Assembly (NCBI RefSeq): GCF_000003605.2
Contig: NW_003148769.1
Location: forward strand, 807,446 to 833,232
Direction: 5' to 3'
Source: Saccoglossus kowalevskii
Lineage: Eukaryota; Hemichordata; Enteropneusta; Harrimaniidae
DNA: 25,787 nucleotides
In this document: in pieces, positions 7,001-25,777 of the stretch
Layout: every line of letters starts with the position of its first letter
Position numbering within the stretch: the first letter of the stretch is position 1
Translations under genes and position numbers: made by a program
Notes under the pieces: model-generated
The model's input: the letters and a program-made list of their open reading frames with translations, nothing else
Databases searched by the model: none
Told to the model about the DNA's origin: nothing

Positions 7001-10000
7001 GGACTTTCGAACATGCCCATGGATATACATGCTTATGCTGAAGATCGCCAACAATGTGAGTTCAACAGTTTATTGGAAATAAGTTTAATGTTAATGTATT
7101 CTGATGTAGTTTATTACAATTTATCAGTAAAAAGCTGTTCATGGTACAGCTCAAATTGTTCCTCTTGAAAGCATTTATAGAGCTTTAAACCCCAAATCTG
7201 GCGACTACAATGGTCTGAATTTGCATGCTTTCTGTGGGGGGGGGGGGGGGGTAAAGTGTGCTACATTCTGTCTTATTTCAAACCCTAAAGTCTAAAGTTA
7301 TTAAAAACAGAAGTGGATCTTTGTAAATCCGTTCTTTTCATTTACGGCAGCTAAGGAAGTTCAATCACCCGACCAATTAGAAAGCTGATATTATTTGTGC
7401 AAATTTTGATTTTCAAATATGTCATGATAGTCACATGACTAAAATAAAGCTTATGAATGATTTACAACTTTAAAGGTGCGTTTTCACAAATTTTTCATCC
7501 TTGCTTTGACTGTATTATCATAGTTGAAGGGAAAGATATATGGAAGGAAAATGTCTGTCCTTGTTGTCGTTGATGTTGTTGTCAATATTGTTGTTAATCT
7601 AGCGTAAATTTTTTTCTTGTGATTACAATATAATAGTTTTTAGCAATTCTTTTCAAAACTTTGATGTGGTATTAAACAGTGTTAGATCTCAGCCAAGTTC
7701 AATGTTATGTACTGTAGAAACAAGTATTTAATTTCGCAGTTTTGAGCTGTCCAAGTATTTCGCAGTGTTTAACTATCGCGGATTGTCGCAAAATAAAATG
7801 AAGGGTCACACCACATGAAGTAGTCAGTCAATGTCTTGTGCAGCTTCTAATGGAATGGTTATTTCATGCACGCCTACCACTATTACACAACAACTATTTG
7901 CAGTTCATTGCAGTCTATTTACTGTATTCTTTATTTTAAATACTAAGTGAATAATGTTTCCAGACGGACTAGGAAGTTATACAAAAAGTATCATCCCTTA
8001 GAAAACAAGTGTTTGCCGTACGATCAGGGAAAAATGTCCATATATGTATAACCAACATCGTTTTGACCGTTTTGGCCATATGAATTGATTAATTTCACCT
8101 GGTAACAAAAAATACTCAGCATATTTAATGTAATATGCATTTATTTTTAGCTGCGCTGTTGACTTTGTCAAGCAGAGCTTATCATATGAGTGATTGTCCG
8201 CTGACATCCATGTCAACGTTTTCGACTTCTTTTTGCAAACTGCAAGCCTGAATGAATGCTTTGATACTTGGTATATATGTACCTTGGGTAAACCTCTCTT
8301 AGATTTGTTCAATTCATGATGTTATCTTCAATTCTCTAATTTTGCTGAATATTTTTGTCATTTTTGGTAAAAAGTGATATTTTCAACTTCTTGTTAAAAA
8401 CCGCAAGTCCAATTGCTTTGATATTACATATATAGGTACTACATGTGGACCTCTCTCAGATTTGTTCATTTTGTGGTGATATCTTTAATTCTCTAATTTT
8501 GGTAAATATTTTTGTGATTTTTGGTAAAAAGTGATATTTTCGACTTCTTGTTGAAAACCGCAAGTCCAATTGCTTTGATATATTATACATATAGGTACTA
8601 CATGTGGACCTCTCTCAGATTTGTTCATTTTCTAATGATATCTTCTCTTCTTTAATTGCCATGTGCATTGCTAACAGCGGAGCTATCTCAGCCAACAGGC
8701 TGCTTGTTCATTTTGTGGTGATATCTTTAATTCTCTAATTTTGGTAAATATTTTTTGTGATTTTTGGTAAAAAATGATATTTTTGACTTCTTGTGAAAAA
8801 CCACAAGTCCAAGTGCTTTGGACTCATCGCGAAATTAAAACCACACGAATAATTTCTACTTCTACAGTACTAGATACTGGTGCCTATGTAAGTTAAAATT
8901 GTCAAGTGCTTACAATCAGTCAAACAATTCATTTCTGATCATTTTCAATCTTGGAAATCTTAACATTCACTATAAAATATCAAAGTTCATTTGTGGTATA
9001 ATTAGCATGTAAAATTTTCAGGTAAAAAAATAGATATATGGACGAAAAAATGTCTGTCCTAGTTGATTGTGTTTCAATGATGTTGTTAATCTAGCGTAAA
9101 TTTTGTTCTTGTGGTTACAATATAATAGTTTATAGCCATTCAAAATAGATACATGTACGTATAAAGTATTTTTCCTGCCGAAAGTCTAGCCTGAATTTTT
9201 CGGCAAAATTTTGCTTTATAATACTATTTAGGAACTTTTATGCATTTTCATAATATATTATTTGGATAATCGCATAACAACAAGTTTAGTTTGTGGTCAG
9301 CCTGAATTCTCATTCATTATTTAATAAATTAATTCTTAATAAACAAGGTTGTAATAATTATACTATGTTTTACTTCGTGAAATACCGAGCCAAATTTAGG
9401 TATGTGTTTACCAAGCGAGTACAAAAATGATCAAGGTTTCTATAGTTTTGCTATGTTTTATCTTATTTATAGGTAACACAACTGTATGTGATATCTACAA
9501 TGGTGGCTGTAGCCATATCTGTACGCCAGCGCCAAATCTGGCCACAGAGTGCTCGTGTCCAGACGGGGAGAACCTTAAAATTGCTAATAATGGAAGAATG
9601 TGTGTTCGTAAGTTATCACATTTTTTTTCTCTGATTGTTCTTACTGATTTTTGACATTTTTCGGCTGTTCTTCAATTGTAATTTTAACGTGTTAAATAAA
9701 TTGATCCATAAATCAGTAGTTAGTGTGTCGTAATGTGTCGCTAAGTCATGAAATGAAATATTCCATGTCTAGTATCATAAATATCATCCAAATTGGAAGT
9801 GACCGAAAATGTATAAGAACTGGACTGCTATTTATCGTACACTATTTGATGACATTCTAAGATGCCGAAAACACAATCACAACCAAATCTTTGAAATACT
9901 TGGTAATATTGCAAACAACTGTTCACCTTACTAATACCATAATTGTAGCAGTTGGTATATGGCACACACTACATGTCAAAGGCTGCAAATAAAATATATC

Positions 10001-13000: not shown

Positions 13001-16000
13001 ATAGACGTGGTGTCGTCTATGATCACGAGACTTTGAAAAAAATATGAATAATAGACTAGCGAGTTGGGTGGGTAGGTCTTGCCTACTGGTCAGCTGTCCT
13101 TGCGTAATCCCATGGTAATACACTGAAAAAGTAATGTGATGAAACAGAATATTTTGCCAACTACGTATCAAGAGATCAGTTTTTGGGTGTTCTTAGAATG
13201 GCCAGATTCCAGACTAGTACAGAATGCGGTGACCATTTATTATATTTTTTCTCTGCAGCGTTCCCTACTTGTGACCCAATCAATGATTTTACATGTGCTA
13301 ATAGTCGATGTATCAGTAAGGACGATGTCTGTGATGGTCATGACGATTGTCGAGATGGACAACAATCAGATGAGCGAGATTGTCGTAAGTCTCACATTCT
13401 CCCACGTTCTTGCAATAGATCTAATTGATCAGATTGGCACTTGCTATTTTAGTTAAATTTGTACTTGTTTAGCTTTGTGGATTGTTTTGCATTGAATTAT
13501 GTTTAGATAAACATTGTGATCAATCATTTAGTTTACTTCAATCGCTCACAAACATTGGGAAATGTTGTTATATAGTAGGCTTACTCAGGAATGCAAACAC
13601 CCAAAATCTGCCCATGAGCCTTTGCGTTTTTATCTTGTGTTGTTATCATCGCTTGGAACTCAATTCCTGCGCATGCGCATGTGATGATCCTCTCGCTTTA
13701 ATTTGAATTTCTTTCAAATAGATGTTCTATTTGAATTTCTTGTAAAATTCAATGCGGCCACCTGTTCCACTGTATACTGTGAGTCGACATCAGCTTTCGG
13801 CAAATTGTGTATGCTGTTGATTTTGAAACATTAGCTTTGAAATTTCAGTAAATGAGACTTTTCAAATGTAAAACATGGAACTTCGCCATGCATGTTTGAT
13901 ATTCATACTGATAGTGATGTCCACTTGGTTACGCAAAGTTTCAAAACTGATAACAATTGTGCCAATATCTAGTTAAACTTCAATGCAAAATGGACAAATA
14001 AATTCAGACTAGTGTAAATTGATATTATATATATTATATAATTCTTTTCTGTTTCTACCTTATACTATGTTTTTTTTGTACTTTCGTAAATAGACCCTTC
14101 AATTGTTTTGCGATACGTGAGAAATCAGGCGTGTAAGTCTCAGATAAACTATTTTTGTTTTTTGCCTGATGTCGTTTGTTTCTGTTTTTCACATAATACT
14201 GAAAAATACACTCATTTGCCATTTGTGAGTTCTAAATAGTAAAAACTAATTCGTAAGTAATTCTCAAAGTGTTTCATTTGAACTAATGATTAACAAATTT
14301 CTATTAAATTTGTATCCCTCGAAAGTACGAAAATGTGTGACATTTTGAAGGTCATCCATTACTAAGATCAGTTCATATTTACAAAAAAAAATAGTGTGCA
14401 TAGATTTGGGTTTTTGAATTTTGCTAACAGTCTAAAATCGCATGTTTGGTTTGGTAAAATAAAGGAAATGTTTTTTTATTGACAGAGTGTATCTATTATT
14501 TGCTGTTGAGTTTGCACTGGAGACTCCTATAATGTCTTTGTGATGAAGCTATGCAAAATGAACTGAACACCTATACAATATACCAAACACCTGTACAATA
14601 TACTGAACACCTATACAATATACTGAACACCAGTACAATATACTGAACACCAGTACAATATACTGAACACCTATACAATATACTGAACACTATACAATAT
14701 AATATACTGAACACTATACAATATAATATACTGAACACCTATACAATATACTGGACACCTGTACAATATACTGAACACCTGTACAATATACTGAGCACCT
14801 GTACAATATACTGAGCACCTGTACAATATACTGAGCACCTGTACATTTTGCCGAACACCTGTACAATATACTGAACACCTGTACAATATACTGAACACCT
14901 GTACAATATACTGAGCACCTGTACATTTTGCCGAACACCTGTACAATATACTGAACACCTGTACAATATACTGAACACCTGTACAATATGCCGAACACCT
15001 GTACAATATGCCGAACACATGTACAATATGCCGAACACCTGTACAATATGCCGAACACCTGTACAATATGCCGAACACCTGTACAATATGCCGAACACCT
15101 GTACAATATACTGAACACCTGTACAATATACTGAACACCTGTACAATATACCGAACACATGTACAATATGCCGAACACATGTACAATATGCCGAACACCT
15201 GTACAATATGCCGAACACCTGTACAATATACTGAACACCTATAAAATAAGAAATTATTATTGTTACATTAGTATATATCTGAAGACAAATATGTCTTAAT
15301 CTCCTCTACACTTATTACTTTCTCATTTCTCTTCTTCTTTGTATATTGAGAATATTTAATCAACTGGCTTTTGTTTTTTTTATAGCTGGACGTACATGCG
15401 CACCGGGTTACCACCAGTGCGAAAGCTCAACATTGTGCCTACCACGCCGTTGGTTGTGTGATGGAGACAATGACTGTGGAGACATGTCTGATGAAAGCAC
15501 AACTTTCTGTTGTATGTACATATATTGATTTCCTTGTCAAATTTTGTTTCTTCAAACTATACTATGACATGCTGAGTTGGTGATGAAAACGAATGATGTA
15601 TTTCTATCCTAATAATACTCAGAATAAATAAACCGTGGAATGTCGGAACACAATGAAGGGGTTCCACAACAGAATCAGGAATGTACCCTGAGACAAACAC
15701 TGACCTTTTTTTTTTTTTACAGACTTTCTCATGTGCAGTTTAGTATTTTATGTAAATTTGTCTTGTCAATTTTTGGTCATCTTTGTAGTTTATGTGTCTT
15801 TAAAGTGCCTGTGCAATGCCCACCCTCACGTTTCCTATTTCAGATCTGTGTCCCACTGAAATGGGCAGTTATTGTTTTTTTTGCTGAAAATGATTACTCG
15901 TATCCAAGTAAATTTGGAATATTTCTCGTGTTGTAGCCACGCCCACCTATCCTGAAACGGTCGACTGTTTCCGGATTCCCGATTCTCGCCGAAAGTGCAC

Positions 16001-19000
16001 CACCAAATGATAAAAATGTGAGAGGAAGTCATACCCCCGAGCCGTGATAACACTGGTCATTCAGTATAGTTTTAAACGATATACATTTTTCGGTTGGCGT
16101 TTTTTCTTTTTTTTTGTCTATTTTATTTTTTTTGAGAGAGTTTTCAGATGTTGTGTTGTGGGCAGTTGCAGTGAAACGTATAGTCATAGTGTATGTATTC
16201 ACACGTTTCTAATCGATCCGAAGGTGCGACATCAGTGGACGAAAGCCACTTAACCTCAGATTCTTTTTTTTTGTGTGGAAAAACTGTCCTTGTCCATGAA
16301 AAAAAAAAAAACTATGTTTAAAGAGAAACACCTACAACGTAAACCTGGCACAACACTTTTGAAAGAAATAGATTTCGAACCAGCCCATGATCACCGAGGC
16401 GGATTTTAGAAGAGACGTCCGGCAAGTGTTTCAAATGAGTTGACTTTTTTTGCGATCGTGATTATAGTTTTATAGAGATCATTCAGTAAAAGGTAGTAAT
16501 AATTTTGACAGTGATACGAAAACGAAGCGTCGGACAAACAGGAAATTACACAGCCCTTACACACTGCTAATTGTTTTCATTTTCGAAGGCTAAAAGTTTC
16601 TGAATTGCTTGGTGATTGGTGTTGAATGTCGAATTCACACCTCTGTTCTTTTTTTTTATCTCCGTCCTTGCAGCTTGATCTGCGTAATAATTTATGAAAT
16701 AAGAATCCGGGCTTGGTCAATGTGTTTCCACCAAAGTTTTAATATGATGTTATAATTATGACAATCACGCCATGGATCACGCTAACTCGAATCCACTCTC
16801 AATTTATCTGTAGGTGTGTCGATCTCGATTATTTTTGTTATCCAATTAAACGCCGCTTTTAACAAACTTGCCCTCGTCGTGACCCGACGCGTTCACCTAT
16901 TTCAACAAAATGTAAATTTATTTCCACGCAACTGTCATTTATTTAGTAACTGTGATTTGTCGTTTTTCACTATAGTCTAATGTTTAGAATGTAAAATTAT
17001 GTTCTCTTTTATTTTAATTTTAAAAGTTTTACACAGACGATCGATGAAATAAAACAGTGTAGTGACGTGCTTAGTAACCTGCTAAATAACGAGATAATTC
17101 CGACGTCAAATTCTATTGTGTTCAGCGACAGTGTACAAACGTGCGCCGGTGTCGGTGACAATCACGGTGACCATCACGGTGACCAGCTACACCAGAACGG
17201 ACATATTTCGCATCTAACTCAACCCCATGCAACAAAAATTGATACTATGTGTTCATTATGGTCTATTCTTCCTCGACGAACAAGTACATATTAAAGTGAC
17301 AATTTAGTCAAAGAAGAGAAAACTGCACAAGAAATTTGCCTTATTTACACGTATCGGCAATGCAAGCTGCCATGCGACTTCCCCTTCTGACGTCACAAGG
17401 GGAATTTCTGTATGCAAATGAGAAGCTAATGAGGAGCCTCGTTTTAAAATACACAAAAATAAAGTTGCCGTAGACTGAGTTTAAAACACATTTTTTCACT
17501 TAAAAAAAATTATTTATGCTTAGAAACATAAAAATTAATAATATTTATGTATCAATGGATAATGTTAGGCGTGAAAATAGCAGCACAGGCACTTTAAATG
17601 GATTTTTTTACCCTTTGAGCGTGAAAGTCAACTTTTTACCATCACAAAATTTATTGTACTCCATGATATGTTTGCATTTTTTTCCAAGTTTTGTTACCTG
17701 GTGCACCCGACAAGAGCGGGTCAACAGAATTCTCAATTCGTTTCATTTTAAAAAATAAACCGGAACAAAAACGTACACAATTTTTCAAACTTGAGGTTTG
17801 TACAAATCTAACGTAATCGATCTTTATAGTTGACGTGTTAAAGGCTGGATAATAACGTAGTCATGCAATTCAGACATTGAACTTCACTTGGGCCTGAACG
17901 ATTGCGCTCCCACTCTCACATTGTTGTATACATAATAACCAGGGATTCATTGGAAAACAAAGAGGATTTCGTTGAGGTATTTTACGAATCCTGTTCTTTT
18001 TTTTTTTTTTTCAGTTGGAATACCTTGTAATAGTGGTGATTTCCGATGTGTTACCAGCGGACGTTGTATTCCCCCGTACTGGCATTGTGACGGCGATAAT
18101 GACTGTAGGGACATGTCAGATGAGCCTAGCAGCTGTGGTATGTTGATCAATACATTGGTGGATTTATTCACCGCTGATAGATTAATGGGGAAATATAAAA
18201 TAATATTTTAAATTTTTTGAATATTTTAACACATTGTCAACTTATCCACGGTAGCTTTCAGCATGCAAACTTTTACTTGGACAATTTTTTTTCCCCAATT
18301 CAGATAGAGAAAAGTTTTCTTTTTAGTTCTTACAGAGACAAATTTCACAAATGCGAGTCTGAAAAAATGTGTTTTTTTTTCTTTATCCTTACAACAGGGA
18401 TTTATAATTTATCTAAGGATGTGGTTTTAAGGTAGTAAGCTACCTTTGAAAAACAATATTACTGGAAATTTAACAAAAATGCATGTTTTGAATAGTTTAC
18501 AATTGTTTCCTTAGCCAGAAACTTTCTATCGTATCTCTAAAATTCTGTTATAAAAATTATATGTAGTGTTATGAGGGCTACATATGACTATAACAAAAAA
18601 TTGGAGAATTTTGAATATTAGTTATCCATGGATAATATAAATTTTGTTTCTGTCCTCACCGTCACAGGTACTGAGGAGTTCACCTGTTTTGGCGATCAGT
18701 TTACTTGTGATAGTGGCCGGTGTATCCCTTTGAACTGGATCTGTGATTCTGATAATGACTGCGGGGACCACTCAGATGAAGATGAAAGACACAATTGTGG
18801 TAAGAATGATTCAAAGAATATCTTTGTAATGCTAAGAGCCAAAACAAGTTCGTGAAATGTCATGTATTGCATCATTACAACCATAGCATCCACAATTATA
18901 ATTATGAAAATATTCACAAGATTGTACTTGATTGGCTAACTAACCCTAACAACTAACATTCTAACCAATCAGAGAGCAGCTTGTTTGTTGACTCAACCGC

Positions 19001-24189: not shown

Positions 24190-24948
24190 TTTTTAGCTCC
24201 GCTGTCGACTTTGTCGGGCGAAGCTTATCATATGAGTGATTGTCCGTCGTTCGTGTCAATGTTTTACTTTTTCGACTTCTTCTTGAAAACTACAAGCCTG
24301 AATGCTTTGATACTTGGTGTATATGTACCTTGGGTAGACCTCTCTTAGGTTTGTTCATTTCATGTTGATATCTTCAATTCTCTAATTTTGGTGAATATTT
24401 TTGCCATTTTTGGGAAAAAGTGATATGTTCGACTTCTTGTTAAAAACCAATAGTTCAATTGCTTTGATATTACATATATAGATACTACATGTAGAGATTT
24501 CTCAGATTTGTTCATTTCGTGATGATATCTTCAATTCTCTAATTTTGGTGAATATTTTTGTCATTTTTGGTATAAAGTGATATTTTCAACTTCTTGTTAA
24601 ACACTGTAAGTCCGATTGCTTTGATATTACATATATAGGTACTACATGTGGACCTCTCTCAGATTTGTTCATTTTGTGATATTTTCAATTCTCTAATTTT
24701 GATGAATATTTTTGTAATTTTTGGTAAAAAGTGATATTTTCGACTTCATGTTAAAAACCAATAGCTCAATTGCTTTGATATTACATATATATTTACTACT
24801 GTAACATGTAAACCTTTCTCAGATTTGTTCATTTCGTGATGATATCTTCAATTCTCTAATTTTGGTGAATATTTTTGTCATTTTTGGTAAAAAGTGATAT
24901 TTTCGACTTCTTGTTAAAAACTGCAAGTCCAATTGCTTTGATATTACA
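24190..24948 (+). mobile_element. Family A element, long core array, 3' end missing
   Basis: The 5' hairpin is TTTTTAGCTCCGCTGTCGAC with GTCGGGCGAAGCT. The leader runs CATATGAGTGATTGTCCGTC and TTCGTGTCAATG. The core landmark GACTTC recurs at 24273, 24430, 24587, 24741 and 24904, spacings 157, 157, 154 and 163 bp. The array stops inside a unit at TTTGATATTACATAT (about 24948), where LINE sequence begins. The subterminal AGCGGAGCT and the 3' hairpin are absent, so the 3' part has been lost or lies beyond the LINE. Confidence 0.65.
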
Positions 24949-25777
24949 TATTGCTGAGAAAGCCAGAAGAGCAGAAAAAGCACAAACATCAATATTGAAT
25001 GCTGATAACAACAACACTTCAATCAAAACCAAACTTTTTGAAACCACACAAATTCCAATTTTGACATATGCAGGAGAGGTGTGGGTGGGGCTTGTGCACA
25101 AATAAAAAATGGGATACAACATGTACTGAAAAATTTTACCTCAAATTTTGTAGACATGTTTTAAATGTTATCAACAACACAAGCAACATAGCAGTTAGAA
25201 TGGATTCTGGTAGACTGCCACTTGTCTATTATTTACACTATAAGTCATTTACATATTTCAAACACTTGATTTCATTGAAGGAAGACAATATTGCATACAA
25301 TGCATTGATTGAAATGCAGAATCACACCCAGAATGATCATTGGCTGTCAAGACTAACAAAAATTAAAAAGGAATACAGTATTAACCAAGATGTCACAAAG
25401 TTAAACTTTCTGCAAGTGACTGTCTTGCTATCTTGAAGAAGGACATGCAAAGGGCTGATTCAAAACTCAGAACATATCAGCTTTTCAAAAATGATATAAA
25501 ACAAGAAGTATACATAGATCAGCTTAATGATAGACAAGCAATCAGAATTCTAAGCAAATTGAGACTGAGCAGCCACAAATTACATATAGAAACAGGTAGA
25601 CATACACGACCAAAAACAAATATTGAGAACAGAAAATGCATCAAGTGCCTAGTCATAGAGGATGAAGTGCACTTTATCACAGAATGTGTACTTTATGAAT
25701 CTGAAAGACAGGAATTATATTCCTTGTTTGATAACATCAATGGTATCAAAAACAAGACAAATTTATATGTATTATGA
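24949..25777 (+). pseudogene. LINE (non-LTR retrotransposon) ORF2 C-terminal fragment, frameshifted
   Basis: The first part reads AEKARRAEKAQTSILNA, then LFETTQIPILTYAGEVWVG, the conserved end of LINE reverse transcriptase (thumb region, LTYGxEVW type). A shift to another frame near 25090 gives EKFYLKFCRHVLNV and SNIAVRMDSGRLPL. A second shift near 25430 returns to the first frame with YIDQLNDRQAIRILSKLRLS, then KCIKCLVIEDEVHFITEC, a CCHC knuckle (C-x2-C-x7-H-x4-C). It stops at 25777. Only about the last quarter of an ORF2 is present (5' truncation), and at least two frameshifts make it non-functional. The 3' tail lies beyond the window. Confidence 0.75.

Follow-up and report, generated by a model that had tools for sequence, protein, structure and literature searches.

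Two partly available papers (PMC9587614 and PMC6004289) supplied our definition of the Kolobok family, as well as the described systems closest to the locus studied here. XKol of Xenopus is a Kolobok element with TTAA duplications, AG termini, and a THAP domain, and its coding sequences of ∼1.8–2.5 kb are given as prospective transposases in the available part of PMC6004289. The same part describes T2-MITE of Xenopus, a non-autonomous element with a TTAA target and AG termini, whose ends read AGGRR and which is presumed to have been moved by a Kolobok transposase. KolobokP, from molluscs and other animals, is assigned to the same superfamily in the available part of PMC9587614; its termini are long direct repeats, and duplications of 3–4 or 4–5 bp lie on either side of the solo repeats.

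We analyzed a 25,787-nucleotide stretch of the Saccoglossus kowalevskii genome (the window), where an initial reading of the sequence (the original prediction) had placed a candidate Kolobok transposon inside a gene. We conclude that the element is very probably a copy of a non-autonomous cut-and-paste transposon of the Kolobok superfamily. It has the TTAA duplication, the AG terminus, and the THAP homology in common with XKol, and one of the Xenopus terminal inverted repeats likewise starts with AGTG (PMC6004289, Table 5, within the part available); however, the family in the window encodes no transposase. In being non-autonomous, with a TTAA target and AG termini, it is like T2-MITE, but its ends are AGTGCCTGTG and it contains a THAP relic. 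Unlike KolobokP, as far as the available text describes it, the element shows no long direct repeat and is flanked by TTAA.

Borders, ends, and copies of the element

To fix the borders, we used 28 copies fetched from the genome, the window's own included (Table 1).

Table 1. Positions in the window of the element, its parts, and the flanking domains of the host gene
Feature	Position	Strand	Basis
Host-gene LDL-receptor class A domain, upstream	15391..15498	+	Pfam PF00057, E 1.8e-12
Left TTAA target-site duplication	15800..15803	none	Window sequence and fetched copies
Element between the TTAA duplications, 1,790 bp	15804..17593	+	28 fetched copies, including the window's own
Left terminal inverted repeat	15804..15814	+	Family-typical 10 bp, AGTGCCTGTG; 11th base pairs through the right-end deletion of the window copy
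THAP relic lacking a start codon; first zinc-finger half	16146..16250	+	Search with the L044 THAP domain; Pfam THAP, E 0.04
Junction of 61-nt deletion; third zinc ligand gone, frame shifted	16245..16246	+	DNA alignment with sister copies
Right terminal inverted repeat	17583..17593	+	First base (17583) supplied by the 6-bp deletion
Right TTAA target-site duplication	17594..17597	none	Window sequence and fetched copies
Host-gene LDL-receptor class A domain, downstream	18023..18136	+	Pfam PF00057, E 6.8e-12

The genome searched was the window's own (572 Mb in 4,830 contigs), with the originally proposed 1,800-bp interval as the query; all copy counts are lower bounds. At least 48 stretches matched when the best 40 of 573 candidates were scored, and 23 stretches, counting the window, were each covered by one alignment from query position 1–3 to 1786–1800 at 85–100% identity. 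The left end, taken as TTAA with the element's first 17 bp, occurred in exact form 163 times genome-wide, and the right end (the undeleted 20 bp plus TTAA) 171 times, with none of either in reversed controls. The copies with shared ends that the original prediction called for therefore exist, and they do not continue past the inverted repeats: the 22 complete copies all stop at the borders, and their flanks differ.

TTAA was found on both sides of 22 of the 28 fetched copies, the window's among them. In four of the other six, one end or both were truncated or altered (L008, L012, L015, and L019; the right-hand TTAA of L015 is internal to the element and was not counted); L021 had TTAG at the left, and L028 ran into N on the left side. 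The termini were of the form 5′-RR...YY-3′ throughout the complete copies, being AG...CT in 21 of the 22 and AA...CT in L003. At non-CpG positions, the 28 copies diverged from their majority sequence by 1.8–5.7%.

The ends of the family read AGTGCCTGTG...CACAGGCACT and match each other over an unbroken 10 bp and at 15 of 17 positions overall. In most other copies the right end is GCAGCCATTTCACAGGCACT-TTAA; relative to these, the window copy is missing six bases, CCATTT, between 17583 and 17584, and its termini are AG...CT with a 10-bp perfect inverted repeat. A perfect 16-bp inverted repeat is indeed present at 15799–15814 and 17583–17598, as originally reported. When set against the other copies, it is the 10-bp terminal repeat plus the TTAA, one base supplied by the deletion, and one outer base matching by chance. 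As an element end, then, the 10-bp repeat stands and the remainder is partly coincidence; similarly, the predicted TTAA borders hold, although the limits had been drawn one base too far out and the length comes to 1,790 bp rather than 1,800 bp.

We also looked for unoccupied sites. When the two flanks of copy L007 were joined, the resulting sequence aligned without interruption to a repeat in L036 (88% identity, 141 of 160 positions), and this repeat holds a single tetramer, TTAC, where L007 is inserted. At least 38 further places in the genome matched the same join in one piece at 89–97% identity (best 40 of 884 candidates scored). L007 lies within a different repeat, and copies of that repeat lacking the insertion continue straight through the position. 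An empty allele of the window copy was not found in the assembly, where its joined flanks matched only the window itself, in two pieces. The proposed check for an empty site thus came out positive for L007 and negative for the window copy.

A non-autonomous piggyBac-type element would also account for the TTAA on both sides of these 22 copies; piggyBac termini start with CCY. The AG...CT ends are of the 5′-RR...YY-3′ type, which the available text of PMC9587614 gives as the mark of Kolobok against piggyBac, and the interior contains a THAP relic, so we consider a piggyBac-type origin improbable. The Kolobok placement, drawn from the TTAA duplications, the AG...CT ends, and the THAP relic, with no transposase core inside, is largely right, and the candidate originally put forward was correctly identified in substance.

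A broken THAP domain

The original prediction included a THAP-type zinc finger within the element. On its own, the window frame (16149–16310) matched Pfam THAP weakly (E 0.04; score 15.1 bits, cut-off 23.9). Two loci fetched by their exact left end, L044 and L034, matched it at E 5.3e-10 and 1.3e-9 over profile positions 1–62 of 87; both keep the zinc finger, the L034 frame with one stop. Among three other decayed frames, L037 reached E 0.02, and L043 and L038 gave no match. The L044 domain resembled the solved THAP domain-containing protein 2 (E 1.4e-5), and it found the window relic at E 1.4e-4, with 66% over query positions 4–40 (best 150 of 291 genome candidates scored).

DNA alignment with the sister copies located the damage: neither the ATGATGG start nor a 61-nt block that carries the third zinc ligand is present in the window family. 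The C2CH signature is consequently not intact, its first zinc pair being kept and its third ligand deleted. The block was absent from all 25 assessable copies of the 28 window-like ones (L016, L020, and L025 were not assessable by the thresholds used), a set found with the window as the query and so biased toward copies sharing its deletion. A wider set comprised 20 loci, of which two were excluded on length once N had been removed, nine fell below the thresholds, and nine were assessable; here the block was absent from five (L031, L039, L041, L046, and L048) and present in four (L034, L037, L043, and L044). We take the window frame to be a genuine but broken relic, judging from these alignments. 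The THAP homology that had been claimed is therefore borne out by the sister copies, and the finger itself is broken.

The THAP frame is still open in several sister copies, as would be expected if selection maintained it because non-autonomous copies produce a DNA-binding repressor from it. We compared 21 THAP-bearing copies with the majority codon over 76 codons and obtained a pN/pS of 1.05 (52 synonymous and 194 non-synonymous changes, 5 of the latter to stops), even though the set, 18 of the 150 places found by the L044 THAP search plus L034, L044, and L051, was picked by protein match and favors preserved frames. At this ratio, the THAP frame is drifting neutrally. Together with the loss of the start codon and third zinc ligand in the window family, this makes a selected repressor very improbable.

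THAP domains are also found in P-type (THAP9-like) elements, and a relic of one of these could show the homology seen in L044 and L034 to Pfam THAP and in L044 to THAP domain-containing protein 2. P elements duplicate 7–8 bp; the 4-bp TTAA duplication and the AG...CT ends leave such an origin hardly credible. We set the piggyBac and P-type identities aside, the termini and the duplication being against them.

In simulations under an order-1 model of the window, with repeat arms within 3 kb, at least one perfect 16-bp inverted repeat arose in 4 of 60 windows (mean 0.083), close to the chance of about 1 in 10 first estimated. The real window holds a second perfect 16-bp pair, A/T-rich, at 17483–17498 and 18360–18375, which straddles the right end of the element and which we take for a chance match; it does not belong to the element. 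Since such repeats do occur by chance, and a second pair exists in the real window, it is the genome copies and not the repeat alone that prove the borders. A chance inverted repeat around a chance reading frame, for which the simulated and second pairs and the E of 0.04 for the window frame alone might speak, has a negligible probability in view of the dispersed genome copies with identical ends and the unoccupied sites for one copy.

Search for a transposase

The majority sequence of the 28 copies contains no open frame longer than 108 aa, and neither the DDE catalytic domain nor the H2CH motif, both of which belong to the Kolobok definition, was found in the element. These results agree with the original remark that no transposase core is recognizable and that the member may be internally deleted; the element is non-autonomous. 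Because a missing transposase domain is expected of a non-autonomous derivative, we filed it as such and not as an autonomous Kolobok.

Elsewhere in the genome, a 595-aa open frame on contig C1243 encodes a Kolobok-like transposase. Scanning 454 aa of it returned PF20700 ‘Mutator’ above the cut-off (E 2.7e-13) and MULE below the cut-off (E 5.5e-4). The contig also has, about 2.9 kb upstream of this frame, a THAP-like frame with an AVP box at its end (by eye) that matched the L050 THAP at E 1e-9. We call the transposase Kolobok-like from this pairing and from its motifs, which we take to resemble those of Kolobok; no model named Kolobok matched it. It had 27 matching stretches on 15 contigs (44 candidates, all scored) and no match at E 1e-3 to any of L001–L051.

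We then asked whether the family ends lie beside it. They were absent from the 3.5–10.7 kb read on each of C1243, C2039, C3427, C3354, C4188, and C4670 (6 of the 15 matching contigs), and likewise from the 3.5–10.7 kb read on the PF20700 contigs C809, C739, and C4619. Among the end matches listed (100 of 163 and 100 of 171, by eye), none was beside a match to the C1243 transposase. The absence of a partner with family ends carries little weight, since several left ends run into long stretches of N.

As a side observation, contig C739 (35 kb; L054, G000:C739:2500-7500) contains head-to-tail PF20700 frames spaced 3.2–4.0 kb apart; tandem arrays are reported for KolobokP in the available text of PMC9587614. 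On C4117 there is another TTAA-flanked element (L049, reverse complement 236–1608), whose 20-bp perfect ends, AGTGTAACTGAATTGGGACA, start with AGTGTAACTG and whose THAP domain (Pfam E 3.8e-13) contains one stop; a single copy of it was read.

Host gene and proposed history

The element, predicted to lie in an LRP intron, is within an intron of an LDL-receptor-type gene: LDL-receptor class A domains are found on both sides of it on the same strand, and its orientation is that of the host gene. The CpG excess originally noted is also real, with 76 CpG in the element, whereas no non-overlapping 1,790-bp stretch of the window had more than 59 (median 31, in steps of 10), and an observed/expected ratio of 1.21 compared with 0.62 in the rest of the window. 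Such an excess would be consistent with an insertion that postdates the decay of CpG in the surrounding gene. Outside the element, a minisatellite at 14562–15248 (34 copies of a 20-bp unit) accounts for the strong GC and AT skew at about 14.5–15.25 kb, and tandem arrays of a similar 157-bp unit occur at two places in the gene, 8292–8657 and 24269–24951.

We propose that the ancestor had AG...CT termini, duplicated its TTAA target on integration, and coded for a THAP-domain transposase, with the THAP part near the left end. In this account, an internal loss removed the catalytic part; the THAP part lost its start codon and then the 61 nt. Dispersed copies have one deletion in common, so the family spread after the loss of the frame and was moved in trans: the transposase of another element must have acted on the shared ends. 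We infer that the transposase of the ancestor was a complete Kolobok one and that the copies were mobilized by a Kolobok enzyme. The copy in the window landed in the LDL-receptor-type intron in the gene's own orientation.

L034, L037, and L051 resemble the window family more closely in the right-hand part than in the main interior stretch. L037 was 79% identical over the left 1.1 kb and 94% over the right 467 bp; the main interior and the right-hand ∼470 bp were 82% and 92% identical in L051, and 81% and 88% in L034. Short interior pieces of L035 reached 94%, so that the contrast between interior and right end is not uniform. A tentative and rather unlikely extension is that this trans-mobilized Kolobok family, perhaps in no repeat library, includes subfamilies with diverged interiors and a more uniform right-hand 470 bp, as if ends had been exchanged by recombination or gene conversion. 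Among the titles and abstract openings listed in literature searches on Kolobok, THAP, and TTAA elements, none described this family.

The family is ordinary in kind and leaves the general picture unchanged. It is a clear example of a non-autonomous transposon in which the part retained from the parent can still be recognized, and the element explains the CpG-rich block in the intron of the LDL-receptor-type gene.
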